A stretch of 24,317 nucleotides of DNA from a virus, in the IMG/VR virus record IMGVR_UViG_3300030106_003612, positions 1-24,317 of that record; one strand, written 5' to 3'. The position numbers and the translations under genes are program-made. How positions within the stretch are numbered: position 1 is the first letter of the stretch; each line of letters opens with the position of its first letter. Shown piece by piece: positions 1-24,317 of this stretch. Below the pieces are notes generated by a model. It ran no database searches. It was not told the origin of the DNA and saw only the letters and a program-made list of their open reading frames with translations.

Positions 1-1
1 T

Positions 2-532: not shown

Positions 533-533
533 T

Positions 534-1089: not shown

Positions 1090-1092
1090 ACG

Positions 1093-2016: not shown

Positions 2017-2025
2017 GAGTTTATG

Positions 2026-9214: not shown

Positions 9215-9219
9215 AGGGG

Positions 9220-11929: not shown

Positions 11930-11941
11930 AATAATTATCCT

Positions 11942-11961
11942 CTAACTAACTAACTAACTAA
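11942..11961 (-). repeat. (CTAA)5 tandem repeat in the SSB leader
   Basis: Five perfect copies of CTAA (TTAG on the transcribed strand) lie between the -10 element and the SSB start. In the mRNA they give an unstructured U/A/G leader immediately before AGAGGATAATTATT and the ATG. Slipped-strand length change here could alter the leader, which is inference. Confidence 0.85.
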
Positions 11962-11972
11962 TCTACACTAAT

Positions 11973-12000
11973 ATTATACCACACATCTGCCTTTATTCAA
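11973..12000 (-). promoter_or_regulatory. Sigma70-type promoter for the SSB gene and genes downstream
   Basis: Reading the minus strand, TTGAAT (11995-12000), 16 bases, then an extended -10 TGGTATAAT (hexamer at 11973-11978). It overlaps the polymerase stop codon and points at the SSB gene about 45 bases away. The 15-base sequence TGTGGTATAATATTA is repeated exactly inside the primase gene at 15296-15310. Confidence 0.75.
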
Positions 12001-12821: not shown

Positions 12822-13996
12822 TCTGATTCCTTCTTCCCGTTAATGTTTTGCATATTTGGTTTACTGCTACTTAATCTGCCTGTCTGCGTAACGCAGTGGT
12901 TGTAGGACGGGTGCAGCGTGTAGTCTACCGCAAAAGATATGTAAGGGCGATAGTAGGTGGATATGCTTTTAGAGACTTGTCTCAAAATCTCTATCTCAAA
13001 ACATAAATCCTCTGCGGGACTGTCTTCCTCATACTTTTGTATGTACTCTAGCGTCTTAGCACCCGCTTTCTTTTCCCACCCACGATTCTCGAAAAGCTTT
13101 ATAGTTTCTGGCTTTACCATAGGCTCGACTCTCTGCTTTCTTATTCCCTTGCGGGTCTTTATCTGCCCCTTCTTATCGCCAGACTTATAACGAACTGGGT
13201 TACCTTCCTCATCAAGCACTTCTTCTACGATAGGCACATTTACTTCTCCACCCCAGAGAAGAGTTTCTATCTGGGCGGCAGAGTTCGGATTAAACTCGCC
13301 AGGATAAATGTCTTTGTACCGCTCGGCAAGATATTCTTCCTTCTGCATAGCCACAAGATGCGTTTTCTTCGATTGTTTCGTTGCACCTCCAGTATCAAAC
13401 TCGAAACCTACGTGGGTCATTTGGCTTGTGACCCCGATACCGTTAAGCATCTCTAGGTAATACTTTTGGGTTTGCTCTGGTTGCTGAGATAACCAAGCAT
13501 ACTGCTTATCGAATATCTGTTTAGTTACTCGAACATCCGATTGCAAGTAGCTTTCCAAAAGCTCTCGGTCTATTTCGTCAGCACCTATACCCGCCTTAAA
13601 CCGTTCCTTTATCTCGGTATCCTTACGAAAGGGTAACCTAAGACTCTTCGCTACCGTTTCTAGCGAGGGTTGTACAAGCTTCCTGCCATGCTGGATATAA
13701 GCAAACTTCTGCGTATCCCAGATAGGGTTATGCCCAAGTTCTAGCCCATATCTAGCTAGGTAGAGAATATCAAATGCTATGTTATGCCCCACAATCAGGT
13801 GTTCATCCCTTCGCATTTCCTCGGTGAATTGTTCTATCTCTCTTCTGTCCGTCAGGATATCTTCCGTCTCTCCAGACTGATAGCCTAGCATAACTATGCG
13901 GTTTGAAGGGTAAGTTGGACTTGCCCCAAAGTGTGGTGTCGGAGCTTTGATGGTAGTCTCAAGGTCTAACACGGTTATCTTATTAAAATCTAGCAT
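12818..13996 (-). CDS. DNA polymerase A, 3'-5' exonuclease and thumb part (first half of a split gene)
   Basis: The 392-residue product starts with a DEDD proofreading exonuclease: V-L-D-L-E-T-T near residue 10, V-G-H-N-I-A-F-D and Y-L-Q-S-D-V. A helical thumb region follows, and the protein ends with T-G-R-L-S-S-S-K-P-N-M-Q-N-I plus seven more residues. That last block normally sits some 25 residues before motif A in an intact polymerase, so the gene stops just before the catalytic palm. An insertion with E-V-L-D-E-E-G-N-P-V and many Lys/Arg lies at about 255-290. The start is ATG 13996, overlapping the helicase stop (TAATG) with AGGAG upstream. Confidence 0.93.
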   Translation of the reverse strand: MLDFNKITVLDLETTIKAPTPHFGASPTYPSNRIVMLGYQSGETEDILTDRREIEQFTEEMRRDEHLIVGHNIAFDILYLARYGLELGHNPIWDTQKFAYIQHGRKLVQPSLETVAKSLRLPFRKDTEIKERFKAGIGADEIDRELLESYLQSDVRVTKQIFDKQYAWLSQQPEQTQKYYLEMLNGIGVTSQMTHVGFEFDTGGATKQSKKTHLVAMQKEEYLAERYKDIYPGEFNPNSAAQIETLLWGGEVNVPIVEEVLDEEGNPVRYKSGDKKGQIKTRKGIRKQRVEPMVKPETIKLFENRGWEKKAGAKTLEYIQKYEEDSPAEDLCFEIEILRQVSKSISTYYRPYISFAVDYTLHPSYNHCVTQTGRLSSSKPNMQNINGKKESE

Positions 13997-15240
13997 TACG
14001 TAGCTCCTAGTAGAGACACAATCTGCGCTCTTTCTTTATCAATACGAACAGCAGCTCCCGCATTTCTGAAATCGTTGTTCGCATAGCTTAGTTTGTTTTT
14101 TGGGGCAGATAGAAACCTTACATCTACTCCCTCGTTGGGGTTCTGCCCTATGCAGACAATCGCATCGGCCTCTCCCTGTACCGCAGTCTTACTGTTATAC
14201 AGTGCATTCATCTTGGGGTACTTCTCCCCGTCAGCCGAACCATCTAACTGACTAGCTCCGATAATCGGACCGTACCTCTTGGCAAGCTCTCGAATGTACT
14301 GGGCTAACTTGGCGTAGCGGTCTATACCGTTATGCGAGTTTTTCTCGAAACCCCCTACCTTCCATATCTGGTCAATAATAATTATTCTGGGGTTAGATGC
14401 TTCGATAGCAGCCTCTATGTCGTGTACTGTCATGCTGGTATTGTCTAGCATTTTAATTTTACCTACACCCACCTTGTCGTTGTAGGTATCTACACTTTTC
14501 TGGAGGTCTTTCATTACCTCCTCACGAGTCCAAGCGAGGGCGGCCTGAGTCTGCCTTAATCTTACTCGACTCGCACTCTCTTCGTTGTTACACCAGAGTA
14601 CACACTCATCTTCCTTAAGCTGTTTCGCCCAGTGGACTGCTTGCGTAGCTAACAAAGTTGTCTTACCCCCGTCTGGTCTCGCACCCAAAATGATAAAGTC
14701 TCCCTTGGATATCGGGCCGAGCATCAGCTCTAGCTCTGGTACACTCCAAGAATACTTGGGAGCATCCTTCAGCTCCTGTAGTTGCTCCATCATTTCGGTA
14801 TCGGAAAGGTTGAGAGAATCCAAGTCCCACTCTACGCCCTTGACCTCCATGTTGTACTCTCTCAGCAACTCAGTAATGCGAGACATTTCGGAATCTCCCA
14901 CACTCACATCGTAAGCAGCGTCAGATATTTTCTCCGCCCAGTGGCGAGTTGAAAGTGTCTTAAGCACAGAGCAATCAACATCCTGGCAACCATCTCGAAT
15001 AAGCCACAAGTAGCCTTGTATGGCTTTTATTCGCTCGTCCGATAGGTTGGGGTGGTTAAGCGTTACCCAAGTGTTAAACTCGTTCCACTCCACCTCGGCT
15101 TTGCCCGTGTCGCTGAAGTAGGGTTGAAGTTGTTGTAAGATAAATCTTATATCTTTAGATAATCTCTCTTCTCTTATAAGAGAAGAGAATCTTTTAAGAT
15201 TAGATTCTTTAGATAATAGTTTTACAATGTCAAGTTCCAT
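13996..15240 (-). CDS. DnaB-like replicative helicase (separate from the primase)
   Basis: The 414-residue protein has a RecA-type motor in its C-terminal half. Walker A is G-A-R-P-D-G-G-K-T at 186-194, a four-Ile strand ending in Asp (I-I-I-I-D-Q-I-W) serves as Walker B, and G-A-S-Q-L-D and an Arg-rich C-terminal strand follow, as in DnaB/T7 gp4 helicases. The N-terminal 170 residues form a helical linker without primase motifs. It unwinds DNA ahead of the polymerase. In T7 the primase and helicase are fused; here they are two genes overlapping by 11 bases. Codons about 13-30 hold a 24-bp perfect palindrome flanked by 12-bp direct repeats, an unusual constraint for coding sequence. Confidence 0.9.
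   Translation of the reverse strand: MELDIVKLLSKESNLKRFSSLIREERLSKDIRFILQQLQPYFSDTGKAEVEWNEFNTWVTLNHPNLSDERIKAIQGYLWLIRDGCQDVDCSVLKTLSTRHWAEKISDAAYDVSVGDSEMSRITELLREYNMEVKGVEWDLDSLNLSDTEMMEQLQELKDAPKYSWSVPELELMLGPISKGDFIILGARPDGGKTTLLATQAVHWAKQLKEDECVLWCNNEESASRVRLRQTQAALAWTREEVMKDLQKSVDTYNDKVGVGKIKMLDNTSMTVHDIEAAIEASNPRIIIIDQIWKVGGFEKNSHNGIDRYAKLAQYIRELAKRYGPIIGASQLDGSADGEKYPKMNALYNSKTAVQGEADAIVCIGQNPNEGVDVRFLSAPKNKLSYANNDFRNAGAAVRIDKERAQIVSLLGAT
15165..15188. repeat. 24-bp perfect palindrome inside the helicase gene
   Basis: The palindrome is centred on TTATAA (15174-15179), with twelve matching bases on each side made of CTCT/CTTC runs. A second inverted repeat AATCTT-TT-AAGATT follows at 15188-15201, and the 12-mer TCTTTAGATAAT flanks the cluster at 15152-15163 and 15206-15217. 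It encodes helicase residues around 18-26. It resembles the TCTTATA/TATAAGA palindromes of the control region at 22570-22640. Confidence 0.9.
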
Positions 15241-16072
15241 GAATAACCTCTCTTATTTCCGAGTCATGTATGAAATGCTTCGGCTCTTTCTTAAGTAATA
15301 TTATACCACAATCTACAAAAGGGGAAAGTTGTTTGCGAATATCTTTCGCCCGATGTACTACTGCTTGGCTGTCATTGTCAAGCCAGACCAATACCCGCCT
15401 ACCCTCTTTATACCATTTTGTTATAAGAGAAAAGCCGTTGCTATTCAATGACGTACCCATCAAAGGTAAAGTTGCATATGACCTGCTTATCCGCAGGGCA
15501 GAGCAGTAATCTTCTGTCAATACCAAGGTATCTGGGGGCGTCTCAGCTTGTGTAAAAGGTGCGACTAATTTGCTTCCGAGCAAAATCCATTTAGGCAAGT
15601 TGTCCTTCAAGGGACGAATTGCCAAGCCAGTAATACTCTTGTTGTCTCCAGACAACGGGATTGTCAAACGGTTTCCGTCAAGCAATTTGATACCCGCAGC
15701 CTCGTACTCTGATACGTTTAGCCCATTCGAGAACCACCACTTCCTGGTAAGCAATGGCAAGTCCCCAAACGGTACGGTCTCCCATCTATCACAAGCCTCC
15801 CATTTGGTCAGCTCTGGCACTCCCCATCTCTTGAAAGGGTCTGCACTGTCTGGTTGGCAGTGTGAAGTCCTCCCAGAAATGCGTCTCTGAGCTACAGAGG
15901 GGCGATAGAAGCCACTTTGACAGCAGTGGTGGCAGTACCCTACCACTCCACCTCCTTCGACTCGTGTAAGGTAAAATTTGCGGTTCGAGTCTCCCTCCTT
16001 ACAATGGTTGATTCTAACAGAACCAGTCTCTGGAAAATGCTCCTCGTAGGGAGCTAAGTCAATCGAGTTCAT
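15230..16072 (-). CDS. DNA primase (zinc-binding and TOPRIM domains)
   Basis: A 280-residue primase that makes RNA primers at the fork. The zinc-binding module is N-H-C (Cys24) and C-H-H-C (Cys47, Cys50), one Cys pair short of the T7 gp4 four-Cys site unless His23 serves. The TOPRIM part has V-L-T-E-D-Y (Glu187) and V-W-L-D-N-D-S-Q (Asp232, Asp234), the metal-binding acidic residues. It lacks any helicase domain, which the next gene supplies. The start ATG has the strongest SD of the region (AGGAGGTGA). An extended -10 promoter lies in its 3' part and could drive helicase independently. Confidence 0.88.
   Translation of the reverse strand: MNSIDLAPYEEHFPETGSVRINHCKEGDSNRKFYLTRVEGGGVVGYCHHCCQSGFYRPSVAQRRISGRTSHCQPDSADPFKRWGVPELTKWEACDRWETVPFGDLPLLTRKWWFSNGLNVSEYEAAGIKLLDGNRLTIPLSGDNKSITGLAIRPLKDNLPKWILLGSKLVAPFTQAETPPDTLVLTEDYCSALRISRSYATLPLMGTSLNSNGFSLITKWYKEGRRVLVWLDNDSQAVVHRAKDIRKQLSPFVDCGIILLKKEPKHFIHDSEIREVIHGT
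15296..15310 (-). promoter_or_regulatory. Extended -10 promoter element upstream of helicase
   Basis: TGTGGTATAATATTA is identical over 15 bases to the element of the SSB promoter at 11969-11983. The hexamer TATAAT is at 15300-15305 with TGG directly before it. No good -35 is seen (CTTTCC at 17 bases). Initiation would fall near 15293, giving a leader of about 50 bases to the helicase ATG. The exact repeat in a coding region argues for a functional element. Confidence 0.55.
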
Positions 16073-16229
16073 GGTTCACCTCCTGATAACCAAATTCTAG
16101 AGTTACTTCCTCAGTCGTGGGAGCTACGTGAATAGCTTGCCTACACTCCAAGCATAAATCCTCGAACTCCTGTACTTTTTTTCTCCAACTCACGTACTCT
16201 ATTTTGGCATTACAAGCCTTGCACCTCAC
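16059..16229 (-). CDS. Small zinc-finger protein (CxxC...CxxC)
   Basis: A 56-residue protein reading V-R-C-K-A-C-N-A-K-I-E-Y, then E-F-E-D-L-C-L-E-C-R, so two CxxC pairs with a short basic segment between (WRKKVQ). This is the layout of the tiny zinc-binding proteins often found in phage early regions. The start is GTG 16229, making a GTGA overlap with the gene before it, and its 3' end overlaps the primase start by 14 bases, which also holds the primase ribosome binding site. It may bind nucleic acid or protein; the role is unknown. Confidence 0.7.
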   Translation of the reverse strand: MRCKACNAKIEYVSWRKKVQEFEDLCLECRQAIHVAPTTEEVTLEFGYQEVNHELD

Positions 16230-16540
16230 AAGCCTATGTCCCGATTAAGGTAAGCTTCTCGCACTGCATCCAGCGATTGTTTGCGAAACATCGCAAGCAC
16301 ACAAGCTCCAAGTCTAGCGAGAGAGGGCTGCTCTGAGCCGTCTTTCCCTGTGGTATGCAGTACGTTCTCTAGGCAAATGGTGAGGTGGTCTAACGACTCT
16401 TCTCCGAGGTCTAAGTAGTCCAAAATGTCCCTACCCTTCACGTTGTATAAATACTGTACCTCAAGGTGTACTCGTTCATCGGCTGTTAAGTCTTCCCAAC
16501 CTCTATTATCCATTGGCTCATCGCCCCAAAAAATTCCCAT
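16226..16540 (-). CDS. Hypothetical protein
   Basis: A 104-residue soluble helical protein (LTADERVHLEVQYLYNVKGRD by composition; LARLGACVLAMFRKQ; ends YLNRDIGL). ATG 16540 has AGGAGG nine bases upstream. The stop overlaps the GTG of the zinc-finger gene. I do not recognise the family. Its location just before the primase suggests early replication support, without proof. Confidence 0.65.
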   Translation of the reverse strand: MGIFWGDEPMDNRGWEDLTADERVHLEVQYLYNVKGRDILDYLDLGEESLDHLTICLENVLHTTGKDGSEQPSLARLGACVLAMFRKQSLDAVREAYLNRDIGL

Positions 16541-16551
16541 ATCTATACCTC

Positions 16552-16842
16552 CTAATGTATGGTTACTTTACGTGTGTTGTCGATAGCTTGCGCTATTTCC
16601 CGCAGTCTTGCAAGAGCTTCGATGGCGGGAGCAAGCTCCCTAGCGATAGCAGTTTGGTTGAACACTTCCTGACTGACTACTTGCGAGGGTGTATCTGTAG
16701 ACAGATTCTCTTCGAGCAGCTCCAGGAATTTATTCTCTACCAGTTCGACCAACTCCTCTACGCTTTCACTTTCGGGCAAGGCTACGAAATCGCTATCAGC
16801 ACCCACCGTTTTGTCTCCGCTGCACTTTGCGTAGCCTCGCAT
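16552..16842 (-). CDS. Hypothetical acidic helical protein
   Basis: Up to 96 residues; the middle is acidic and helical (ESESVEELVELVENKFLELLEEN), followed by ARELAPAIEALARLREIAQAI, which predicts two amphipathic helices or a coiled coil. ATG 16842 has a weak SD. A GTG at 16806 has CGGAGA seven bases upstream and would shorten the overlap with the small ORF before it to 11 bases, so the true start may be 16806 (84 residues). Function unknown. Confidence 0.6.
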   Translation of the reverse strand: MRGYAKCSGDKTVGADSDFVALPESESVEELVELVENKFLELLEENLSTDTPSQVVSQEVFNQTAIARELAPAIEALARLREIAQAIDNTRKVTIH

Positions 16843-16939
16843 CAGCGTCCCGCTTGATAAGCCAGAGACTCCACTTGAGTCGAAGCATACCTAGCTCCCA
16901 GTTCAAATCCGATAATAATCTTGATAGTTTAAGCAACAT
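16796..16939 (-). CDS. Very small basic/hydrophobic ORF (47 residues)
   Basis: The ORF starts at ATG 16939 (M-L-L-K-L-S-R-L-L-S-D), inside the last codons of the preceding gene, with GGAGGAA seven to eight bases upstream. The first 26 residues are amphipathic and Trp/Leu-rich (W-S-L-W-L-I); the rest is basic (R-L-R-K-V-Q-R-R). It fills the only gap between two genes in this packed operon, and its stop falls next to the good GTG start of the following gene. No family recognised. The SD-like box also encodes M-E-E of the upstream protein, so chance is possible. Confidence 0.45.
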   Translation of the reverse strand: MLLKLSRLLSDLNWELGMLRLKWSLWLIKRDADARLRKVQRRQNGGC

Positions 16940-17492
16940 CTTTTAATTCCTCCATGAAGTTTGGTGTTGGTCTGTCAGTCCATTTTGCAAAAGACTTTTT
17001 GTACTGTACATAATAGTTACGGTATGCGTCAACAGCGTTGTCAGCTTTAACATCATCAGGCATACACTGTGGCATTTCCGTAAGTCCTTTATTGTGGTCA
17101 ATGTTTTTAGGTATTAAAGGTAAATAGTGTTGTAGTGTTTGAAATGTTTTATGTTTTTTTGCATTGTGCCAAAAACGATATTCATATTCTAAACACAACT
17201 CATACCATAGGTTTGCAAGGTATCTGTAATTATCTTCGGATGCTCGTACCCATACCGCACTTGGATGGTTTATGAAGGAAGCCTTATATAAATTATTTTC
17301 CATTTCAACGTCATCAAGTTTCCAGCGTTTGATTCTACGCCCACTACTGCTGTCGATATACTGCTCTCCATTTAACACTCTGTGTGCGGTACTGAGTAGC
17401 TGTGCGTACTCTACAATCATTTTTGTGACGTGTTTATCACAATGTAACTTTGCACATTCTCTCGGATTTTCATGTAAATAAAAAATATTCAT
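16929..17492 (-). CDS. Conserved phage protein of unknown function
   Basis: The 187-residue protein opens M-N-I-F-Y-L-H-E-N-P and continues C-D-K-H-V-T-K-M-I-V-E-Y-A-Q and S-T-A-H-R-V-L. It has the later blocks N-H-P-S-A-V-W-V and R-P-T-P-N-F. I recognise this opening from proteins widespread in cyanophages and other marine phages. They are usually unnamed and sometimes annotated, weakly, as pyrimidine-dimer glycosylase-like. Conserved Cys13, Cys18, His21 and His37 could form a metal or active site. The ATG overlaps the upstream stop as ATGA. DNA repair is possible but unproven. Confidence 0.75.
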   Translation of the reverse strand: MNIFYLHENPRECAKLHCDKHVTKMIVEYAQLLSTAHRVLNGEQYIDSSSGRRIKRWKLDDVEMENNLYKASFINHPSAVWVRASEDNYRYLANLWYELCLEYEYRFWHNAKKHKTFQTLQHYLPLIPKNIDHNKGLTEMPQCMPDDVKADNAVDAYRNYYVQYKKSFAKWTDRPTPNFMEELKDVA

Positions 17493-17914
17493 GCCAATCT
17501 ACACTCCCTATCTAGTCCAAATTGTTCTGCGTGAGCAGAAAGTATAACAAAGTCCAAATAAAACTCTAGAGCCATGTGAACATACCTGTGGTTCACCCCA
17601 CGCTTACCCGCATAGGTATAAATCTGTGAAGGGCGATTACCTCCCCCGTTATTGTAGAGGTCATAGTAAGCGTTCGAGACTACCCGCAAGTGCTCCAAGT
17701 GTTTGTTCTTACGAGGATTTTTAACCCTACCTTCGCCAGGAATTAAAGGCTGAAGGTCATCAGCTAAAGCCTGATGCCTCCCGTTACCGCACCAGTAGCT
17801 ATCCTCTGGGAGCATTTGGTGAACACCTCGAAGACTGCGAGTCCATCGGAACTCACCCCTCTCACTGTGCAAGTCATCTCCAAACGCTTTCCAAAACTTC
17901 TCAATTCTATTCAT
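17489..17914 (-). CDS. Hypothetical protein
   Basis: A 141-residue protein, Arg/His/Trp-rich at the N-terminus (GEFRWTRSLRGVHQM, W-C-G-N-G-R-H-Q) and helical at the end (H-M-A-L-E-F-Y-L-D-F). The basic N-terminal half suggests nucleic acid contact, which is inference. ATG 17914 has AGGA five to six bases upstream and overlaps the small acidic ORF before it; the stop overlaps the next gene as ATGA. Family not recognised. Confidence 0.65.
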   Translation of the reverse strand: MNRIEKFWKAFGDDLHSERGEFRWTRSLRGVHQMLPEDSYWCGNGRHQALADDLQPLIPGEGRVKNPRKNKHLEHLRVVSNAYYDLYNNGGGNRPSQIYTYAGKRGVNHRYVHMALEFYLDFVILSAHAEQFGLDRECRLA

Positions 17915-18005
17915 TACTTTCCTGTTCCTCTTGTTGTTCTAAGTCCTGTTGTTTCCACCAGTTATCGTCATCCAATGTCGGATAATCTGGGTCTGCCTCT
18001 AGCAT
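17907..18005 (-). CDS. Very small acidic ORF (32 residues)
   Basis: ATG 18005 opens M-L-E-A-D-P-D-Y-P-T-L-D-D-D, followed by N-W-W-K and a Gln/Glu-rich tail to TAG 17907. It fills the space between two genes, overlapping the stop of the upstream gene (ATGCTAG) and the start of the next (ATGAATAG). A GTG at 18035 in the same frame would add ten residues. The strong acidic composition and tight fit make it a plausible gene. Function unknown. Confidence 0.5.
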   Translation of the reverse strand: MLEADPDYPTLDDDNWWKQQDLEQQEEQESNE

Positions 18006-18190
18006 TTTTTCCCAATCTGATTTAAATCTTCCCACCTTCTTACCCCCCTTTGGATTGATTCTACCTTACTTGTAATTTTATCATAGGTTTCCTGACCGCT
18101 AGTAGAGAACCTGTCGTAGTCCCAACCTAACTGGTCTACTAAGTCTAAAATCTCCCTAACGTCTTTAGGATAGAGCAGTACTTTTTCCAT
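17999..18190 (-). CDS. Small hypothetical protein
   Basis: A 63-residue helical, charged protein (YPKDVREILDLVDQLGWDYD). ATG 18190 has GGGAGGAA about nine bases upstream. It overlaps the upstream gene by 26 bases in another frame, and its own stop overlaps the small acidic ORF. Family not recognised. Confidence 0.6.
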   Translation of the reverse strand: MEKVLLYPKDVREILDLVDQLGWDYDRFSTSGQETYDKITSKVESIQRGVRRWEDLNQIGKKC

Positions 18191-18482
18191 TAATCTGTTC
18201 CTCCCTTTTTATTCTTCTAGAACTTATACTGTATGGTTCTTTTTCAATTCTATTATCCTCATGCCAAATAATAAAATCAAGTAGCCTTTGACAGTGTCTT
18301 AATTCTTTTTTCAAATCATCATTGGTAACTGAATCGGATGCTTTACCCAATGTTTTGTTAATATAACCAACCACTTCAGAAGGTTCCCACTCTATATCGC
18401 ATAGTTCTTCTATAAATTCTACCTCTTGTTCCTCTTCGATAGTAAGATACACATCGAGTGGCATATAAAGTTTTTCAATCAT
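18165..18482 (-). CDS. Hypothetical acidic protein
   Basis: A 105-residue protein with an acidic first half (TIEEEQEVEFIEELCDIEWEP by composition) and a basic C-terminus (SSRRIKREEQ). ATG 18482 overlaps the previous stop (TAATG) and has a GGGGGAA box upstream. Codon content is more A/T-rich than that of its neighbours. No domain recognised. Confidence 0.6.
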   Translation of the reverse strand: MIEKLYMPLDVYLTIEEEQEVEFIEELCDIEWEPSEVVGYINKTLGKASDSVTNDDLKKELRHCQRLLDFIIWHEDNRIEKEPYSISSRRIKREEQINGKSTALS

Positions 18483-18793
18483 TAGTCTGTTCCCCCTACT
18501 TTAAAATAATCTGGGTCAGAACCCCAGACACAGTTGACTGCGTGTGCCGAAGAAGAGCTTAGTCCCGCTTCCTCCAGTTTTGCCAAAGCAATTTTCGACA
18601 TATCCAGGATTTCCTTAAATCTGCGGGAAACATCGTCTATGTCGTTCTGGTCTTCAGCACTCGCAAGGTCGGACAATCCCCACTCGGCCTGTGATTTAAT
18701 GTTATCAAGCATAGTCCGAGCAGACAGACAGCCGTCTATCTCGATATATTTAAACTCTTGTTTTCTTTTTTCGTCAACTAAAATTACATACAT
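18482..18793 (-). CDS. Hypothetical protein, first gene after an internal promoter
   Basis: A 103-residue protein: an N-terminal beta-type stretch (MYVILVDEKRKQEFKYIEI), a central helix (RRFKEILDMSKIALAKLEEAG) and a Gly-rich end. ATG 18793 lies about 20 bases after the -10 of the TTGACA promoter, with AGAGG upstream. It heads the transcription block that runs on to the primase. Function unknown. Confidence 0.65.
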   Translation of the reverse strand: MYVILVDEKRKQEFKYIEIDGCLSARTMLDNIKSQAEWGLSDLASAEDQNDIDDVSRRFKEILDMSKIALAKLEEAGLSSSSAHAVNCVWGSDPDYFKVGGTD

Positions 18794-18815
18794 AAATAAT
18801 TACCTCTTTTTTTCT

Positions 18816-18843
18816 AAAATAAACCTTTATTCGCATTTGTCAA
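18816..18843 (-). promoter_or_regulatory. Sigma70 promoter before the gene at 18793
   Basis: On the minus strand a perfect TTGACA (18838-18843), 16 bases, then TATTTT (18816-18821). It overlaps the stop of the methyltransferase-like gene, and the next start is about 23 bases from the -10. This is one of the few intergenic gaps in the operon. Confidence 0.7.
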
Positions 18844-19538
18844 GCTTTAATTTTATTTGCCTCAAATACTGCTCTGGCAAACCCCCTCGGGGTTGCACTT
18901 CTGATGTTCTTAGTGCGGATACTCTTACCCCCTAGTTTCCTGTGCTGCAAGCTGTAACCTTCCGCTACGGCTACGGGTTTTTTCTCTGGCATCACAAACC
19001 CGCCCCCAGTCCATAAGCAAGTCTTTTTGGGGTAGGCATCGCGGGGCATAATCAGGTCAGGCCATTTTGGGTGAACATCACCCTCTGGTAAATACCCCCC
19101 GTACTCATACGGTTGGAAAATATAATCTGGTTTACGCCACTTGGTTGATAGCACACTAACGGGATTTTCTACCATATATCGCGCCCCTATAATTTCCGCA
19201 AACTCCGCTACCATTTTAGCATGGTGAACTGCTCGCTCTTGAAAACCAGGATTTTCTAATTCCTTTCTCTTGAAATGTGCCGCACCGCTCACTGCTAGGT
19301 CAGTGCAAGGCGGAAAGCCAAACACAAAGCGCGTATTCCCTGTAAACTTTTCCTTCAAATGCTGAAGCATTTCAGGCTGATATAAATCAACTTGGGTGTA
19401 AGTGATACACCCCCTACCCTCGACCACTTCAGGCTTTACCCCTAAGTGTTGGATATCCAGAGCGTGACACTCGTACCCCGCCTCTGCCCAAGGTCTCAAA
19501 GCCTCCCCTGTAAAATCGTATAAACTTATAATGTTCAC
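18840..19538 (-). CDS. DNA cytosine methyltransferase-like protein
   Basis: The 232-residue protein has F-G-F-P-P-C-T-D at about 73-80 (the PPC catalytic loop of C5-cytosine methyltransferases) and V-E-N-P at 123-126 (ENV-like motif). The start is S-L-Y-D-F-T-G-E-A-L-R-P-W-A-E-A-G-Y, a degenerate form of motif I without F-x-G-x-G. The C-terminal R-S-A-T-P-R-G-F-A-R-A-V is typical of a phage branch of the family. It is short, with little room for a target-recognition domain. A role in modifying phage DNA against host nucleases is possible, but base and target are unknown. The start is GTG 19538, overlapping the small membrane peptide's stop (GTGA). Confidence 0.75.
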   Translation of the reverse strand: MNIISLYDFTGEALRPWAEAGYECHALDIQHLGVKPEVVEGRGCITYTQVDLYQPEMLQHLKEKFTGNTRFVFGFPPCTDLAVSGAAHFKRKELENPGFQERAVHHAKMVAEFAEIIGARYMVENPVSVLSTKWRKPDYIFQPYEYGGYLPEGDVHPKWPDLIMPRDAYPKKTCLWTGGGFVMPEKKPVAVAEGYSLQHRKLGGKSIRTKNIRSATPRGFARAVFEANKIKA

Positions 19539-19630
19539 TTTCTACCCTCCCAATACCAGACTAAACAAAGTCCTATTATAAACACACTGAAAGAAATTAC
19601 AATCGAAACGGTGTCTTGTTGGTAATACAT
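19535..19630 (-). CDS. Single-span membrane micropeptide (31 residues)
   Basis: ATG 19630 reads M-Y-Y-Q-Q-D-T-V, then a hydrophobic span of about 18 residues (IVISFSVFIIGLCLVWYW) and the polar end E-G-R-K. It is locked into the operon: the start overlaps the SprT stop (TAATG) and the stop overlaps the methyltransferase GTG (GTGA), with GAGAGG upstream. That double fit is strong support for a real gene despite its length. It may act in the inner membrane early in infection; nothing more can be said. Confidence 0.75.
   Translation of the reverse strand: MYYQQDTVSIVISFSVFIIGLCLVWYWEGRK
19575..19602 (-). promoter_or_regulatory. Possible promoter for the methyltransferase-like gene
   Basis: On the minus strand TTGTAA (19597-19602), 16 bases, then a perfect TATAAT (19575-19580), inside the membrane micropeptide gene and about 37 bases before the GTG 19538 start. 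The location in coding sequence lowers confidence. Confidence 0.35.
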
Positions 19631-20190
19631 TAGACCTCTCCCAAAGCGGGCAAAATCTGTTCTTTACATTTGGGGCAACGATAACGGGCTTGCCCTCGCA
19701 TAACCTTGTTATGTCTAACCTTTGTGAATACCCACTCTTTACACCCGCACGTATACACAGTCCCGTTTTTAACCACTTTTCGGACGTCGAGCTTATGCCT
19801 AACATTGGGCTTTGCGCCCAGGATTTTCATAAGTTTCTGCCACACTTTGCCATGCGGTCTATCCTTATAAAATCTAGACTCTTTTACATATTGGTTAGTG
19901 AGTTGGACAAAGTGGGAGACCTCATGCGGGATAGTCTGAGCGATAAAATAGTCCAAGTTATCCCGCATTAAAACTGGGTTAAAATTGATATAGCTGTCCC
20001 AGTGTAGGTCCAGAACATCCTTTGAAACGCTAGCCTGTCCCGCAGATTGTCCGCGCAAGTCTACCCTAATTCTAGGAAAGTCTAAAAAGGTTTCTAATGG
20101 TAAAAGCTTTTTATCTATTGCTTTGGATAGCGTCAAAATATGTTTTTCTGTCTCTGCACTAGCTATTTTATGCAGTTCTGTTGTGTCCAT
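19630..20190 (-). CDS. SprT-like zinc metalloprotein
   Basis: The 186-residue protein has the zincin signature H-E-V-S-H at 89-93 with a third likely ligand in H-G-K-V-W at 113-117. A C-terminal zinc ribbon follows, made by C-G-C near 148-150 and C-P-K-C at 172-175. That is the domain order of SprT and of the protease part of Spartan, which cuts proteins crosslinked to DNA. Phage members are common but untested. ATG 20190 follows GGAGG. Peptidase action is inferred from the complete HExxH motif. Confidence 0.85.
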   Translation of the reverse strand: MDTTELHKIASAETEKHILTLSKAIDKKLLPLETFLDFPRIRVDLRGQSAGQASVSKDVLDLHWDSYINFNPVLMRDNLDYFIAQTIPHEVSHFVQLTNQYVKESRFYKDRPHGKVWQKLMKILGAKPNVRHKLDVRKVVKNGTVYTCGCKEWVFTKVRHNKVMRGQARYRCPKCKEQILPALGEV

Positions 20191-20192
20191 GA

Positions 20193-20360
20193 TTACTTAA
20201 CCTCCACACTGAACAACTCACCACTATTAACAAAAACTTGCTGTCTGTCTCTATATTGGTTTGCTCGTTGTCGTTCCCAATGTTGGAACATTTTAACAAA
20301 GCTCTTTCCGTTATTTTTTGTACTAATAACCTTTATTTTTCGTGGTTCTCTATTTCGCAT
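20193..20360 (-). CDS. Small basic ORF (55 residues)
   Basis: ATG 20360 opens M-R-N-R-E-P-R-K-I-K-V-I-S and continues with F-V-K-M-F-Q-H-W-E-R-Q-R, ending L-F-S-V-E-V-K at TAA 20193. It ends 3 bases before the SprT start, and its last codons hold the GGAGG box for that gene. The composition (many Arg, Lys, Asn, Gln) suits a nucleic-acid-binding peptide. It explains most of an otherwise empty stretch. Family not recognised. Confidence 0.65.
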   Translation of the reverse strand: MRNREPRKIKVISTKNNGKSFVKMFQHWERQRANQYRDRQQVFVNSGELFSVEVK

Positions 20361-20479
20361 TTTATACCCTTTTTCGCTAGTTTGCGATTGTAATTATTGG
20401 CAGTTTTTCTGTCTCTTTTAGTGCAGATTCTTTTTCTACTACCCGCTTTTAATTTACCCTCTTTTCTATACCTTTGCAA
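20333..20479 (-). CDS. Very basic small ORF with TTG start (48 residues)
   Basis: TTG 20479 has GGAGGG about six bases upstream, lying across the stop of the membrane micropeptide before it. The product is strongly basic (Q-R-Y-R-K-E-G-K-L-K, S-R-K-R-I-C-T-K-R-D-R-K) and ends at TAA 20333, overlapping the next ORF by 28 bases. No ATG is available in this frame. The basic composition and good SD support it; the rare start codon weakens the case. Confidence 0.5.
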   Translation of the reverse strand: MQRYRKEGKLKAGSRKRICTKRDRKTANNYNRKLAKKGIKCEIENHEK

Positions 20480-20483
20480 AGCT

Positions 20484-20594
20484 CTACCCTCCGATTGTAT
20501 ACAATGCGGCTAAGTAATATTGGATTAGAGCGTATGTACCGCAAGCTATCACTAAACAGCTCGCAAGTAATAAAAGTTTATCGGCTAGACTCAT
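20484..20594 (-). CDS. Single-span membrane micropeptide (36 residues)
   Basis: ATG 20594 reads M-S-L-A-D-K, then a long hydrophobic span (LLLLASCLVIACGTYALI) and Q-Y-Y-L-A-A-L-Y to TAG 20484, with GGGGAA upstream. It starts 12 bases after the preceding stop. It could also be read as a lipoprotein-like signal (L-V-I-A-C), but a plain transmembrane peptide is more likely at this length. It is the second such peptide in this early region. Confidence 0.7.
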   Translation of the reverse strand: MSLADKLLLLASCLVIACGTYALIQYYLAALYTIGG

Positions 20595-20606
20595 GTTACT
20601 ATTCCC

Positions 20607-20810
20607 CTATTGATTAAAATAATGAACGATAGACCAATGTCTCAAAACTATTTTTGCAGCCGCGAGCCGCTCATTCTCTTCTACTGTGTTAAGTCGCGGT
20701 AGCATCGACAAAGCCTTAACCATGTTACGCACTGCATAGCGCGGTTGGTTGCCTACGATAGCGTGAGCTTTCCTTATTTTTTGGATAGTCTGTGGCGTTA
20801 ATTTTCGCAT
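20607..20810 (-). CDS. Small basic helical protein
   Basis: A 67-residue protein with a net positive charge ([16 protein letters not shown]) and two or three predicted helices, possibly a helix-turn-helix-sized domain, though no clear turn motif is visible. ATG 20810 has AGGGAG upstream; the gap to the preceding gene is 12 bases. It might bind DNA as an early regulator, which is inference from size and charge. Confidence 0.65.
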
Positions 20811-20822
20811 TGTTTATGCTCC

Positions 20823-21575
20823 CTAATGTTGGACTATTGCTATTGATTTAAAGCTTTTTGAGCTTGTACCCGCGCAAAGCTTACACTTGGCGCATTCTGA
20901 TTTTACACCCGCCTCTTTACTGGCGGGGCAAAGTATCTCGTTTTTATCCGTCGCATTTTCTCGCATAACTCGAAAATAGCGGTAATTCTGAGCGGTAGCT
21001 TGCTTGGCCTCTTCTCTAGATTCTACGCTAGCCATAACTATTTTATTCCACCCGTCCGCCAGGATTTTCTTATTTTGCCATTGGTGGGTATAACCCGTAT
21101 GAGCTTTAACAGTCTGTAACAAGTTATTCCAGATAGCTTGTGGGACTGCTAGCGGGTCACCATAAGACCCTATTCTTAAAACTCTACCTTTTACCAACTC
21201 ACGAGCTTTTAATGCTGTAGGCTTTCCGTACGGGTTCTTAGTATATGCCTTAGTCCATATGCCTAGCTTTGTTTCCACAGTGTGTTTTTTCCAGACTGCC
21301 AGTGGGGCTTGAAAGGTTTTAACGTAACAAGTACGTTTTTCTATCCATTTTTTGCCATTCCACAACCCGCGATGTTTGCAATCACCGCACACAGATTTAT
21401 CTGCGCCAGTCTTAATGGCTTCATGCGGTGCGGTATTCTTGTCTAAAATCCAAGTTTGCAGCATATTGCCTGTTTTTTTGTTGGAGCTAACATCTTCTAA
21501 CCCCGTTAGAATAACCACAATATCGGACTCGTTGTCTAATTGCGATTTACCGTCGTATAAAATAATACCGTTCAT
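20823..21575 (-). CDS. Cysteine-rich protein resembling phage gene product 88 (unknown function)
   Basis: A 250-residue protein with seven cysteines in two groups: C63-x2-C66 and C83 (V-C-G-D-C, R-T-C-Y), and C216 with C228-x2-C231-x2-C234 (E-C-A-K-C-K-L-C-A-G). Between them lies V-L-R-I-G-S-Y-G-D-P. The layout, including C-P-A at 216 and the CxxCxxC end, resembles the gp88-type family seen in mycobacteriophages and many environmental phages; the function is not known. CxxCxxC is also the ferredoxin signature, so an Fe-S cluster is possible, zinc being the alternative. It is the second gene after the control region, so it is expressed early. ATG 21575 follows AAGGA. Confidence 0.7.
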   Translation of the reverse strand: MNGIILYDGKSQLDNESDIVVILTGLEDVSSNKKTGNMLQTWILDKNTAPHEAIKTGADKSVCGDCKHRGLWNGKKWIEKRTCYVKTFQAPLAVWKKHTVETKLGIWTKAYTKNPYGKPTALKARELVKGRVLRIGSYGDPLAVPQAIWNNLLQTVKAHTGYTHQWQNKKILADGWNKIVMASVESREEAKQATAQNYRYFRVMRENATDKNEILCPASKEAGVKSECAKCKLCAGTSSKSFKSIAIVQH

Positions 21576-21578
21576 GTT

Positions 21579-21920
21579 TTACTGTCCTTTTTTAATAAGT
21601 AGTGTTTCGTATGTTAACTCACAATTAATGGTATTTAAACCTTCAATCGTAATAGCTGTATTCTTTCCGCCTAAAATGGTTCTAATATTCTGGCTCTTTT
21701 TGCCGTCGCATAAGTCTATGACTGGTATCAAAATACCGCTTTTAACTTTCTTCGATATTTTCTTTTTGCCGTCGGCCGTTTTTGCTAGCGAGACAGTGTT
21801 TTTCCCGTAATAGATATTATATCTGTCACCCGCATTAAATCCATTAGAAGACAATATTGAACCTTCTAGATAGATTCTTGCATTGCCTTTGTATTCGCCT
21901 ATCAGCTTATCTAAATTCAT
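21579..21920 (-). CDS. Hypothetical protein, first leftward gene after the control region
   Basis: A 113-residue, beta-rich, Lys-rich protein (KGNARIYLEGSILSSNGFN, G-D-R-Y-N-I-Y-Y, then DGKKKISKKVKSG). The L-E-G-x-x-L-x-x-x-G-F-x-x-G-D series faintly recalls AbrB/SymE-type swapped-hairpin DNA-binding folds, too weak for a call. As the first leftward gene it could be an early regulator or host-takeover factor. ATG 21920 is preceded by AAGGTTAG. It ends 3 bases before the next gene. Confidence 0.65.
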   Translation of the reverse strand: MNLDKLIGEYKGNARIYLEGSILSSNGFNAGDRYNIYYGKNTVSLAKTADGKKKISKKVKSGILIPVIDLCDGKKSQNIRTILGGKNTAITIEGLNTINCELTYETLLIKKGQ

Positions 21921-22036
21921 TTTAACTAACCTTTTTTATAAAATGTTACCTAGCTTATAGCAGTAAACGTGCCAAATTCATAAGTCATTGTTTTATAAGG
22001 TTTTATGGTTTTTAAGCTTTGGCATAGGTTATGCGC

Positions 22037-22088
22037 TTGCACCAATAAAGTGCAATTTATACAGCTACAAAGCGAATATTGCACCAAT
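22037..22088. repeat. Direct and inverted TTGCAC repeats (possible operators)
   Basis: The 11-mer TTGCACCAATA occurs at 22037-22047 and 22079-22089, 42 bases apart, which is four turns of B-DNA. The first copy is also one arm of the inverted repeat TTGCAC/GTGCAA (22037-22055). A third TTGCAC lies at 22165-22170 beside the inverted repeat GCACTA-AAC-TAGTGC (22167-22181). Such phased copies are typical of repressor operators. Confidence 0.6.
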
Positions 22089-22103
22089 ATAGGGAAATCC
22101 GCT

Positions 22104-22131
22104 TTTAAATAAGAATGATTCTTACAGTCAA
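22104..22131 (-). promoter_or_regulatory. Possible leftward promoter with an operator in its spacer
   Basis: Minus strand TTGACT (22126-22131), 16 bases, then TTTAAA (22104-22109). The spacer is almost entirely the 15-bp palindrome TAAGAATGATTCTTA (22110-22124), so a bound repressor would block polymerase directly. It would give a leader of about 180 bases to the gene at 21920. The -10 is only a partial match. Confidence 0.4.
22110..22124. promoter_or_regulatory. Fur-box-like palindrome 1
   Basis: TAAGAATGATTCTTA is a perfect 7-1-7 inverted repeat matching 12 of 14 fixed positions of the Fur-type pattern TGAGAATNATTCTCA common in gammaproteobacteria. It lies between the -35 and -10 of a possible leftward promoter. 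Confidence 0.5.
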
Positions 22132-22243
22132 ATTGATAAATCCGTTAGCATTCAAGGATTTACCTTGCACTAAACTAGTGCGATGTAGGTGCTTCACTCA
22201 CTCTTTCTCACGCTCACACACGTAAAAAATAATGTCATGTAAA

Positions 22244-22258
22244 TGATAATCATTCGCA
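22244..22258. promoter_or_regulatory. Fur-box-like palindrome 2
   Basis: TGATAATCATTCGCA matches the 7-1-7 Fur consensus TGATAATNATTATCA at 12 of 14 fixed positions. Its core AATGATAATCATT (22242-22254) is a perfect 6-1-6 palindrome equal to the centre of the classic Fur box. The CATTCGCAT end is shared with site 3. Confidence 0.6.
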
Positions 22259-22273
22259 TTAACCTAGTAATAA

Positions 22274-22288
22274 TGAGAAGCATTCGCA
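22274..22288. promoter_or_regulatory. Fur-box-like palindrome 3
   Basis: TGAGAAGCATTCGCA matches TGAGAATNATTCTCA at 12 of 14 fixed positions and lies exactly 30 bases from site 2 in the same orientation, about three helical turns, so two dimers would bind on one face. Confidence 0.5.
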
Positions 22289-22569
22289 TCTGCCGTAGAC
22301 AGTCCCAATAATTAACGAAGGGGGCGGGGAGCCTGGATTGCATACCAATATATATATGCAGCAACACTCATACTTGAGAGCAGGTATAGCTAATTCACCA
22401 TCTAAATACGATTAATTCATAAACTAAATAACTAAATAGATTACAAATTAACAACAGACAGAAAACTAACCTAAGTGTTTGATATATAAAGCAAATAAAT
22501 ACGTATGGGTAATGGTATTCAAAAACGCCCCAGTAATGAGAACAGATAGCCTCTGAGAGAGGCTCATAC

Positions 22570-22640
22570 ATCTTATATAAGATATATCTTATCTTATCTA
22601 TATTACTCTCTATAAGAGTAATATATCTTATCTTTAAGAT
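22570..22640. repeat. AT-rich palindrome cluster, possible replication origin
   Basis: Contains the palindrome ATCTTATATAAGAT (22570-22583), the inverted repeat TATATTACTCT/AGAGTAATATA (22599-22625, five-base loop), ATCTT-T-AAGAT (22630-22640) and the direct repeat ATATATCTTATCTT (22582-22595 and 22621-22634, 39 bases apart). It is A/T-rich and easily melted, and the same TCTTATA/TATAAGA words recur in the helicase gene palindrome. Confidence 0.6.
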
Positions 22641-22650
22641 GATTATATTA

Positions 22651-22700
22651 CCTGTCTACGTTAAAACTCCGACAGGTGAATGTTTCCTTAAACAGGAAAC
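22651..22700. repeat. Two adjacent stem-loops
   Basis: CCTGTC/GACAGG (22651-22676, 14-base loop) and GTTTCC/GGAAAC (22682-22700, seven-base loop) follow the AT-rich cluster. They lie about 90 bases upstream of the rightward promoter, so they are not in its mRNA and may act as DNA sites. No T tract follows either, so they are not terminators. Confidence 0.55.
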
Positions 22701-22789
22701 TGAACACACTTCAACTAATCCGAATATAATTTCGGGTAATGCATACCCATAGTATGCTACTCCCATTACTAACGGTTAGAATATAAAGG

Positions 22790-22818
22790 TTGACAAACCT
22801 TTTACTTTCGTGTATACT
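22790..22818 (+). promoter_or_regulatory. Strong sigma70 promoter of the rightward genes
   Basis: Perfect TTGACA (22790-22795), 17 bases, TATACT (22813-22818). Initiation near 22825 would give a leader of about 45 bases to the ATG at 22869. The sequence after the -10 (TATACTATTA) resembles that of the two leftward elements (TATAATATTA). Confidence 0.85.
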
Positions 22819-22868
22819 ATTATCACGATGCGTATAACTTTCTGTTTACCCTTTAAAGAGGATACTTT

Positions 22869-23153
22869 ATGGAATATTTTTCGGGTTCTTTGTTGAACCC
22901 TTCAAGACCTGGAGGAAAGGATAATAGAAACAAAACGCCATTCGACCAATACTTTCCAGGTATGTCTCAACCTGCTCCACAAGCAGGATTACTATCTGCG
23001 CCTCGCAACGAGGCATTTCAACTTCCCCCGATTTTAAACCCTTCTGCTTCTTATCGCGCTTTTGCGATACCTAAAGCAGCAAGCCCTTTCATGGGCTTTA
23101 TTAAAAACTTAAGGAAGGGGTTTTCATCCCCGTCTTCAATGTATATGAGGTAA
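22869..23153 (+). CDS. Hypothetical Pro/Ser-rich protein, first rightward gene
   Basis: A 94-residue protein low in regular structure and rich in Pro, Ser, Phe and Asn (M-E-Y-F-S-G-S-L-L-N-P-S-R-P-G-G-K). The C-terminal 25 residues are basic and aromatic (F-M-G-F-I-K-N-L-R-K-G-F-S). ATG 22869 has AGAGGAT upstream. It is the first product of the strong promoter. I know of no family; disordered small virion or adaptor proteins look like this, but the sequence does not decide. Confidence 0.65.
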   Translation: MEYFSGSLLNPSRPGGKDNRNKTPFDQYFPGMSQPAPQAGLLSAPRNEAFQLPPILNPSASYRAFAIPKAASPFMGFIKNLRKGFSSPSSMYMR

Positions 23154-23157
23154 TAGT

Positions 23158-23640
23158 ATGGAACCGTTAAGTGTGATGGCTGCACTCAGTGTAGCAAACA
23201 AAGCGTTTAACGGAGTCTCTAGAATGGTCAGCAAGGGTAAGGAAATAGAATCCACTCTAGGGCAATTAGGGAAATGGTTTGAAGCATTAGCCGATGTTAA
23301 TGCGGCTACAGAACGGAGCAAAAATCCTCCGCTATTTAAGAAAATAGCAGGTAGTAAGTCAATCGAGAAAGAAGCTCTCGATTGCGTTATTGCAAAACAA
23401 AAGATGTATCAGCAGAGGAAAGAGCTACGAGAGCTTATACTTTACGGGTACGGTAAGGATGTTTGGGATGATTTACTAGCTACCGAAAAACAAATACGGG
23501 CAGAACGAAAGAACCAAATACACCGAAGACTAGAGTTTAAACAGAAAATGATAGACTTTACGCTTATTGTTTTTGGTAGTTTTACTATTATTGGATTAAT
23601 TACGGGAACAATCTGGATTATCTCGCAAGGAGGTAACTAA
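23158..23640 (+). CDS. Conserved marine phage protein with C-terminal membrane segment
   Basis: The 160-residue protein has a long charged helical region (GKEIESTLGQLGKWFEAL, SKNPPLFKKIAGSKSIEKEAL, ELRELILYGYG) ending in a hydrophobic span at about 132-156 (FTLIVFGSFTIIGLITGTIWII). The G-Q-L-G-K-W-F and K-N-P-P-L-F-K-K blocks are familiar from unnamed proteins of cyanophages and other marine phages that sit near structural and lysis genes. A tail-anchored topology, coil in the cytoplasm, is likely. A lysis or membrane role is a guess from the span and the probable endolysin gene nearby. Confidence 0.75.
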   Translation: MEPLSVMAALSVANKAFNGVSRMVSKGKEIESTLGQLGKWFEALADVNAATERSKNPPLFKKIAGSKSIEKEALDCVIAKQKMYQQRKELRELILYGYGKDVWDDLLATEKQIRAERKNQIHRRLEFKQKMIDFTLIVFGSFTIIGLITGTIWIISQGGN

Positions 23641-23849
23641 TGGTCCTGGTATTTATGCTTACTACGTTTATAAACGGTGAGCCTCAACCAGACAAAAGCT
23701 ACTGGTATAACATCGACCGATGCCAGTATTTTGCCATGAGTTTAAGAAGGCAGAACTACTGGTTAAGCCAGAAGTATCGTCAAAACGAAGTAGGTGCTAC
23801 CTGCACCCCAGTACACGTTAACGATGAAGTGACTAAGGTTTGGAGGTAA
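23640..23849 (+). CDS. Small protein with hydrophobic N-terminus
   Basis: A 69-residue protein starting M-V-L-V-F-M-L-T-T-F, too short for a clear transmembrane helix but able to act as a weak signal or anchor. A soluble aromatic part follows (KSYWYNIDRCQYFAMSLRRQ) with two Cys (residues 28 and 55) that could pair outside the cytoplasm. The start overlaps the previous stop (TAATG). Similar tiny proteins follow the membrane-anchored family in cyanophages. Together the pair could form an envelope complex, which is inference. Confidence 0.65.
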   Translation: MVLVFMLTTFINGEPQPDKSYWYNIDRCQYFAMSLRRQNYWLSQKYRQNEVGATCTPVHVNDEVTKVWR

Positions 23850-23855
23850 TAAAAG

Positions 23856-24185
23856 ATGAGCATTGTTTTTCACAGCTCTGCTGCTAAAAAAGTTAAAGAG
23901 ATTTTACAGGAAGATTCAGAAATTTCAGAAGATATTTCTTTGCGGGTTTTTATACAGGGAGGGGGTTGTTCTGGGTTTCAATACGGATTTACTTTTGATG
24001 ACCAAAAAGAAGATGACGAAACTGTTACTACCGATGGTATTACTTTAGTTGTAGACCCCCTAAGTCTACAGTATTTAAACGGAGCAGAAATTGACTACTC
24101 TTCCAATCATTTTTCATCTCAATTTACTATTAGAAATCCGAATGTGCAGACAACGTGTGGTTGTGGAAGCTCTTTTGCTGTATAG
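23856..24185 (+). CDS. erpA: ErpA-like A-type Fe-S cluster carrier
   Basis: A 109-residue protein closely following bacterial ErpA: G-G-G-C-S-G-F-Q-Y-G-F-T-F-D-D at 35-49, V-V-D-P-L-S-L-Q-Y-L at 65-74, N-P-N at 94-96 and T-C-G-C-G-S-S-F at 100-107. The three cluster-binding cysteines Cys38, Cys101 and Cys103 are all present, so it should receive and pass on Fe-S clusters. Length is that of the family (E. coli ErpA 114) and only the first few residues diverge, so it is intact and probably active. ATG 23856 has GGAGGT eight bases upstream. It lies in the rightward phage operon before a probable endolysin gene, an auxiliary host-derived gene rather than a structural one. Confidence 0.92.
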   Translation: MSIVFHSSAAKKVKEILQEDSEISEDISLRVFIQGGGCSGFQYGFTFDDQKEDDETVTTDGITLVVDPLSLQYLNGAEIDYSSNHFSSQFTIRNPNVQTTCGCGSSFAV

Positions 24186-24188
24186 AAA

Positions 24189-24317
24189 ATGAGAATAGAT
24201 ACTAATATAGCCTATACTTATAACAAACCAAAAAGGATAAAAGCTCCCGTGGAAATAGATTGGAGAAGCTACCCTAACTTTAAGGAAGAAGAGTTTAAGT
24301 GTACTGCTAGTGGGTTA
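24189..24317 (+). CDS. Probable M15-type peptidase (endolysin), N-terminal part only
   Basis: The frame opens at ATG 24189, 3 bases after the ErpA stop, and runs out of the window after 43 codons. The segment Y-P-N-F-K-E-E-E-F-K-C-T-A-S-G resembles the start of peptidase M15 (D,D-carboxypeptidase-like) phage endolysins, whose domain begins with F-x-x-x-E-F-x-C. The catalytic His and Asp would lie beyond the window, so activity cannot be checked. The SD is poor, so translation may depend on coupling to erpA. Confidence 0.6.
   Translation, partial: MRIDTNIAYTYNKPKRIKAPVEIDWRSYPNFKEEEFKCTASGL

Follow-up and report, generated by a model that had tools for sequence, protein, structure and literature searches.

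A control region between two divergent operons of a phage genome holds an array of Fur-box-like sites, and related phages carry in the same slot either comparable arrays or sites for other host proteins. The DNA analyzed is a virus record of 24,317 bases, referred to here at its full length as the window. From comparison of the window with its relatives, we consider it probable, at roughly 0.7, that this region serves host DNA-binding proteins as a docking cassette whose contents can be exchanged, with a Fur-box array in the window and DnaA boxes or a parS-like site in relatives. The array, where it lies, its reappearance among relatives and the differing content of the slot are read directly from the sequence. 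As we envisage it, the cassette would lie between two fixed landmarks, a left anchor and a GC-rich element, within the region of divergent control in a group of marine tailed phages, and the bound host protein would build a nucleoprotein complex through which the state of the host gates the flanking operons, the start of phage DNA replication, or both. In the window phage, iron-loaded Fur would hold back or license the programme. We put such gating at somewhat short of an even chance.

Layout of the divergent control region

A divergent gap of 948 bp (21921-22868) separates the leftward genes of the window (6641-21920), which include replication and nucleotide genes, from its rightward genes (22869 onward, and 1-6630). 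The genes and landmarks around the gap are as follows.

21579-21920, minus strand: opening gene of the leftward operon (113 aa), no assigned function; 38% identity to part of L119, a DnaA-type phage
22036-22059, 22078-22101 and 22164-22187, no strand: three TTGCAC/GTGCAA-type repeats, lying in the interval from the leftward operon to the Fur array
22182-22208, plus strand: left anchor, GATGTAGGTGCTTCACTCACTCTTTCT, the left boundary of the cassette
22320-22378, plus strand: bipartite G-rich element, GGGGGCGGGGAGCCTGGAT-N32-TACTTGAG, the right boundary, with an exact 32-base spacing
22551-22641, no strand: AT-rich nested palindromes, strongly conserved in L003
22869-23153, plus strand: opening gene of the rightward operon (94 aa), no assigned function; conserved within the phage group
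23856-24185, plus strand: gene 4 of the rightward operon, coding for an ErpA/IscA-like Fe-S cluster carrier of the A type (Pfam PF01521, E=1.2e-20)

The left-anchor 14-mer GATGTAGGTGCTTC has one mismatch-free occurrence in the window, and eight relatives (L001-L004, L075, L114, L116, and L119) have an RTGTRGGTRC-type copy in the equivalent position; the anchor is diverged in L008, L087, and L111, and the L007 contig is too short to include it. The 32-base spacing of the G-rich element is exact in all nine copies, from eight phages and one bacterial MAG (L090). At the place of this right landmark, L111, L114, L116, L119, and L075 have a stretch that on inspection reads as C-rich, not G-rich. 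An RNA structure for the G-rich element was considered and found to be unsupported (fold z-score 0.12), and an Rfam search of the window returned nothing at the gathering threshold, with two sub-threshold matches in 21900-22900.

Among 84,980 species genomes of bacteria and archaea, the L090 MAG alone yielded a copy of the element (L090:5558-5616, noted together with L090:5167-5218); it is intergenic and without a Fur array. Next to it stands what appears by eye to be the 3' half of a tRNA-Phe, and tRNA and Rfam scans detected no gene at that place. The L090 copy may be what is left of an integrated element or a satellite.

The TTGCAC/GTGCAA-type repeats of the window may be operators or iterons, and GGTGCA-type repeats that resemble them by eye occur in L004, L111, and L119. 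Elsewhere in the window, DNA polymerase A is seemingly split into overlapping ORFs (11997-12821 and 12818-13996), the second of which matches DNA polymerase families and the first of which was assigned only by eye; the same region comprises two overlapping ORFs in the L001 contig and two separate ORFs in the L004 contig. The leftward operon of the L004 phage (L095:15810-16610 and 16627-17769) encodes CobT-like and porphyrin-biosynthesis-type AAA proteins. A search of a phage collection for close cultured relatives gave no DNA match to 19500-24317, and the protein matches were distant.

Three Fur-like sites in the window

A first-pass annotation of this DNA had reported Fur-box-like operators at 22110, 22244, and 22274, and the sequence confirms sites at exactly these coordinates.

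22110-22124, no strand: Fur-like site 1, TAAGAATGATTCTTA, a perfect 7-1-7 palindrome scoring 12/14 on the 7-1-7 form
22244-22258 (extended, 22236-22260), no strand: Fur-like site 2, TGATAATCATTCGCA, with overlapping 19-mers offset by 6 bp
22274-22288 (extended, 22266-22290), no strand: Fur-like site 3, TGAGAAGCATTCGCA, with overlapping 19-mers at 22266 and 22272, each 13/18

Scoring against the 7-1-7 consensus forms TGATAATNATTATCA or TGAGAATNATTCTCA, which have 14 fixed positions, reproduced the reported 12 matches for each of the three sites, and sites 2 and 3 lie 30 bp apart in the same orientation, as had been claimed. A second scoring used the published 19-bp Vibrio Fur consensus, AATGATAATAATTATCATT, in which hexamers follow each other in 6-bp steps (PMC7536154); it has 18 fixed positions. 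On this measure site 1 is the weakest (12/18 by hand count) despite its perfect palindrome, and site 2 contains the top two 19-mers of the window, CATGTAAATGATAATCATT at 22236 (14/18) and AATGATAATCATTCGCATT at 22242 (16/18). The several adjacent hexamers and 7-1-7 repeats expected of a Fur box are present, the former at 22236/22242 and 22266/22272 and the latter in the three 12/14 sites.

The sites exceed what shuffled sequence yields, a comparison that the first-pass annotation had itself put forward. Three sites of at least 12/14 fall in the divergent gap, and 1000 dinucleotide shuffles gave a mean of 0.025, with 25 shuffles containing at least one such site and none containing three. The fixed 200-bp stretch that precedes the G-rich element has four matches of at least 13 to the Vibrio consensus, a count that 0 of 1000 shuffles reached. 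The whole window has a single additional 12/14 place (11926-11940), which overlaps the start of the leftward ORF 11432-11929. With the Vibrio 19-mer, both matches of at least 14 in the window are located at 22236-22260, and four of its five matches of at least 13 at 22236-22290, the fifth being at 11924.

Slot contents in related phages

Relatives were sought by protein, by the conserved G-rich element and by primase alignment, with the Fur motif left unused, and the slot was readable in eleven of them (L001, L002, L003, L004, L007, L008, L087, L111, L114, L116, and L119). The module compared was the 200 bp leading up to the G-rich element or, in four more distant relatives, the 133-200 bp after the left anchor. 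Six relatives hold Fur-like arrays, four hold DnaA boxes, and one holds a parS-like (ParB) site. Conservation in related phages, proposed earlier as a check on the sites, took the form of Fur-like arrays that diverged relatives also hold in this slot.

Matches of at least 13 number six in L003, seven in L004, five in L007, nine in L008, and two each in L114 and L116, compared with four in the window, and the count of each of these six relatives was reached by 0-3 of 1000 shuffles. The DnaA-type modules contain four strict DnaA boxes in L001, four in L002, two in L111, and five in L119 (0/1000 shuffles each) and are without Fur matches of at least 13; the window's own module has zero DnaA boxes. 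The L087 module has one parS match of 13/14 (0/1000 shuffles), a single site in a single phage. A 13/14 parS match in L123 and L124 lies inside polA and is probably meaningless.

When the eight Fur-type modules (the window, the six relatives, and L075) were pooled, they contained 40 matches, a number reached by none of 1996 random palindromes matched for composition (mean 0.86, maximum 22 matches over the eight modules); six of the 1996 matched in all eight modules. L075 and another phage, G011 (L079), were fetched with the Fur pattern and hence excluded from the eleven relatives. Every match of at least 14 in the 37.9-kb L004 contig sits within its array. Host-regulator sites are concentrated in non-coding control DNA in these phages, and they recur among relatives.

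The primases of L001 and L002 are 98% identical, as are those of L114 and L116, so the eleven relatives amount to fewer than eleven independent lineages. The primase search returned 21 loci. L111, L114, L116, and L119 were used; L118 was outside the scan; L107, L108, L112, L113, L115, L117, L123, L125, and L126 stop short of the region or are without the landmark; L109, L110, L120, and L121 repeat known contigs; and L075 had been fetched earlier. Among distant primase relatives with 10 kb of upstream sequence, L124 has no array and L122 has one isolated 14/18 match only. Isolated single 14/18 Fur matches occur elsewhere in L111, L115, L119, and L122.

Apparent exchange of slot contents between close relatives

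Slot contents differ even between phages that are otherwise very similar. The primases of L116 (Fur-type) and L119 (DnaA-type) are 99% identical, with values of 97-99% when both L114 and L116 are compared with L119, and a 160-aa protein is 100% identical between the window (Fur-type) and L001 (DnaA-type). L116 and L119 align in four long blocks, mostly at 80-94% nucleotide identity, that flank the slot on both sides, and 28 of 28 bases are identical immediately past the GC-rich side of the slot. There is no alignment between L116 29-1149 and L119 1593-1965, the stretch that contains the module. This stretch comprises the module and the left part of the gap, to which L116 adds an SprT-like gene and a short ORF. 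Because it is wider than the module and holds an extra L116 gene, what is exchanged may extend beyond the array. A pure iron-switch reading of the window is too narrow, because close relatives fill the slot with DnaA boxes or a parS-like site instead.

The probable binder of the array

The binder very likely has Fur specificity, because the sites exceed shuffled sequence and the arrays recur in the slot of diverged relatives. A search for a phage-coded Fur found no FUR family (PF01475) gene in the window or in 18 further viral contigs, which comprised seven relatives, seven contigs with strong Fur boxes, and L111, L114, L116, and L119; most of these contigs are partial, so that a phage-coded binder could lie elsewhere. 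A host protein is the most parsimonious binder. Host Fur is therefore the likely one, and we hold with considerable confidence that it would occupy the window array.

A phage-coded protein whose site only resembles a Fur box is a far less credible binder, although most of the genomes are partial and L116 has, adjacent to its array, an extra gene that is absent from L119. The motif agrees in detail with published Fur consensus sequences, the extra SprT-like gene is also present in the DnaA-type L111, and no examined gene is exclusive to Fur-type phages beyond the L114/L116 pair. Two candidates for genes tied to the Fur-type cassette were rejected, namely the SprT-like gene of L114 and L116, on account of the L111 copy, and the window's first leftward gene, on account of its 38% match in DnaA-type L119. 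Across 12 contigs, leftward slot neighbors that have relatives do not track module type; several neighbors are without a relative, which limits the comparison. Cooperative assembly on DNA is a trait of Fur, DnaA, and ParB, all of them proteins of the host chromosome, and this may be the property that links them in the present slot.

Promoters around the sites

Several promoter-like sequences bear on whether the array acts as an operator.

22131-22102, minus strand: weak leftward promoter-like sequence, TTGACT-18-TAAAAG, with site 1 within its spacer
22283-22312, plus strand: weak rightward promoter-like match, 9/12, overlapping site 3
22790-22818, plus strand: sigma-70 promoter, TTGACA-17-TATACT, 11/12

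In a classical operator, host Fur would directly repress or activate the early promoters and lysis would be timed by iron. Several observations are compatible with this arrangement. First, site 1 was described in the first-pass annotation as filling the spacer of a possible leftward promoter, and this placement holds. Second, the window and five relatives (L001, L002, L003, L004, and L087) have leftward TTGACA/T or TTGGCA hexamers 163-233 bp to the left of the element, positions that would put the arrays directly upstream of a candidate leftward promoter; the strongest leftward promoter-like sequence is that of L003 (TTGACA-16-TAAAAT). Third, middling promoter-like matches lie inside the arrays of L003, L007, and L008, as the 9/12 match does over site 3, and an additional Fur box lies to the left of the L114 array. 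Finally, the rightward operon's Fe-S carrier gene fits an iron theme, which is no proof of it, and phages controlled through host Spo0A or CtrA offer precedents.

Against an operator of this kind stands the position of the promoters themselves. The only promoter that is both strong and found in all eight phages scanned is rightward (TTGACA-17-T(A)n or near-TATAAT), starts 210 to 582 bp from the start of the G-rich element, beyond the right landmark, and is overlapped by no Fur-like site. In contrast to textbook Fur operators, the present arrays are off the conserved strong promoter. The leftward promoter-like sequence around site 1 is weak, and across the window gap promoter-like matches occur at shuffle level (5 versus a shuffle mean of 4.3). 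In addition, an operator leaves the replacement of the array by DnaA boxes or a parS-like site in relatives unexplained. The earlier proposal that host Fur times the early genes by iron supply is accordingly retained in part: a Fur-specific binder is very likely, and iron timing of the early genes is a lesser possibility. A simple iron operator is possible, and we judge it unlikely and a poorer fit than the docking cassette.

Relatives of the window's Fe-S carrier are encoded at 25 viral loci, and at the five loci inspected its neighbors are tail, lysis, replication or other genes.

Replication, titration and packaging as possible alternative functions

The docking cassette might also be understood as part of a replication origin, in which an initiation complex recruits a host protein that is usually DnaA, with Fur or ParB as a substitute. 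DnaA boxes in four of the eleven relatives, all found without the Fur pattern, point this way, as do the constant spacing of the G-rich element, the AT-rich nested palindromes, which are a possible unwinding region, and a nearby change in the sign of the GC skew. That change is confounded, however, since it coincides with the switch of transcription direction at the divergent gap, and no initiator was identified. Fur is not known to act in replication initiation. The origin-like location drawn from the DnaA boxes of relatives, the palindromes and the switch in strand composition is suggestive only, and we regard an origin of this kind as a tenable minority reading.

A second alternative is that the phage copies serve as decoys that titrate the host regulator (Fur, DnaA, or ParB) and thereby rewire the host. 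The presence of several sites per array, and of sites for three different host proteins across the group, would suit such a role. A few sites per phage genome are, however, a small number relative to cellular Fur levels, and a decoy has no need of a fixed place between conserved landmarks. We consider titration improbable.

Packaging provides a third alternative, in which the G-rich element would be a cos or pac site marking a genome end and the neighboring array the site of an accessory protein. A separate phage, G011, has a Fur array and a G-rich stretch just before its terminase genes, and CtrA phages cluster CtrA sites at genome ends or in gaps, as described in a published account (PMC9437464). 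In the window and in the L001, L002, L004, and L087 contigs, however, the assembly continues well through the element, and the terminase large subunit gene of the L087 contig is about 3 kb away. A packaging role is doubtful on this evidence, if slightly less so than titration.

Fur boxes in other phages

A strict Fur pattern, GATAATGATAATGATTNNCATT, matched 15 stretches in 2.9 million viral contigs, including L005 (which is the L004 contig), L008, and L075, the last of which was later shown to be a relative. G011 is a 43.9-kb phage with no evident close tie to the group, in which all matches of at least 14 fall within about 70 bp in a gap ahead of the terminase genes, with a G-rich stretch after them. 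Having been fetched with the Fur pattern, G011 does not count as independent evidence by carrying such sites, but the confinement of these sites to one gap is informative.

Other viral contigs show different arrangements. A prophage-like family (L068, L069, L071, L074, L076, and L078) has a cold-shock-type gene and a full-score Fur box, with a 140-aa gene starting about 100 bp from the box in five of the six members; L078 is cut there. In L071 an endolysin gene follows the 140-aa gene. Another phage (L077:820-1070 and L080:4278-4528) has two strong Fur boxes about 230 bp apart, one at the start of a leftward ORF and one in the gap before the terminase large subunit gene.

Significance and comparison with known systems

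We tentatively hypothesize, from these sequence comparisons, that marine lytic phages may possess a plug-in slot for host sensors, in which exchange of a short cassette would change the licensing or restraining protein (Fur, DnaA, or ParB). If so, the window phage would take its cue from iron status and its sisters from the replication or segregation of the chromosome, and a single control slot would take an exchangeable host input with the remainder of the phage largely constant. Ocean iron supply would then be tied directly to a lytic phage infection programme, and iron-dependent timing of viral lysis would be open to simple binding and reporter assays. The combination of left anchor, host-site array and GC-rich element would also provide a signature for locating phages that sense other host states.

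Among the matches listed in a search of the open-access literature, there were no Fur-site arrays in lytic phages and no slot alternating between host proteins; Fur in a host-regulator-docking role and the swapping of cassettes appear to be new within the scope of that search. One published account treats Fur expression in infected marine Pseudoalteromonas (PMC12282109).

The window sites share the 19-bp Vibrio consensus and the 6-bp hexamer steps with gammaproteobacterial chromosomal Fur boxes. Unlike these, they lie off any recognized strong promoter or iron-uptake gene. Host Fur also acts on a prophage promoter in Stx1 prophages, where it controls the stx promoter. That promoter belongs to a cargo gene of a temperate phage, whereas the present array lies in the central control region of a phage group.

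Closer parallels come from phages that exploit other host regulators, as covered in one account (PMC9437464). LexA-controlled phages and prophages co-opt a host stress regulator via its binding sites, and these sites differ from the present ones in lying within the promoters of lytic-switch genes and responding to DNA damage. Phages of Alphaproteobacteria carry dense clusters of sites for one host regulator, CtrA, in non-coding phage DNA, as the Fur-type phages do for Fur, and are associated with deferment of lysis; in their case binding and regulation have been shown experimentally, and the part of the account available describes no swapping of regulator type for them. The virulent phage phi29 uses Spo0A boxes near its promoters together with Spo0J (ParB) to suspend its cycle (PMC9437464). 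The likeness to phi29, within what that text covers, lies in the exploitation by a virulent phage of sites for a host master regulator and of a host ParB-type protein. The phi29 case concerns Spo0A and sporulation in Bacillus, whereas in the present group Fur-like, DnaA, and parS-like sites of putative function alternate in one slot.
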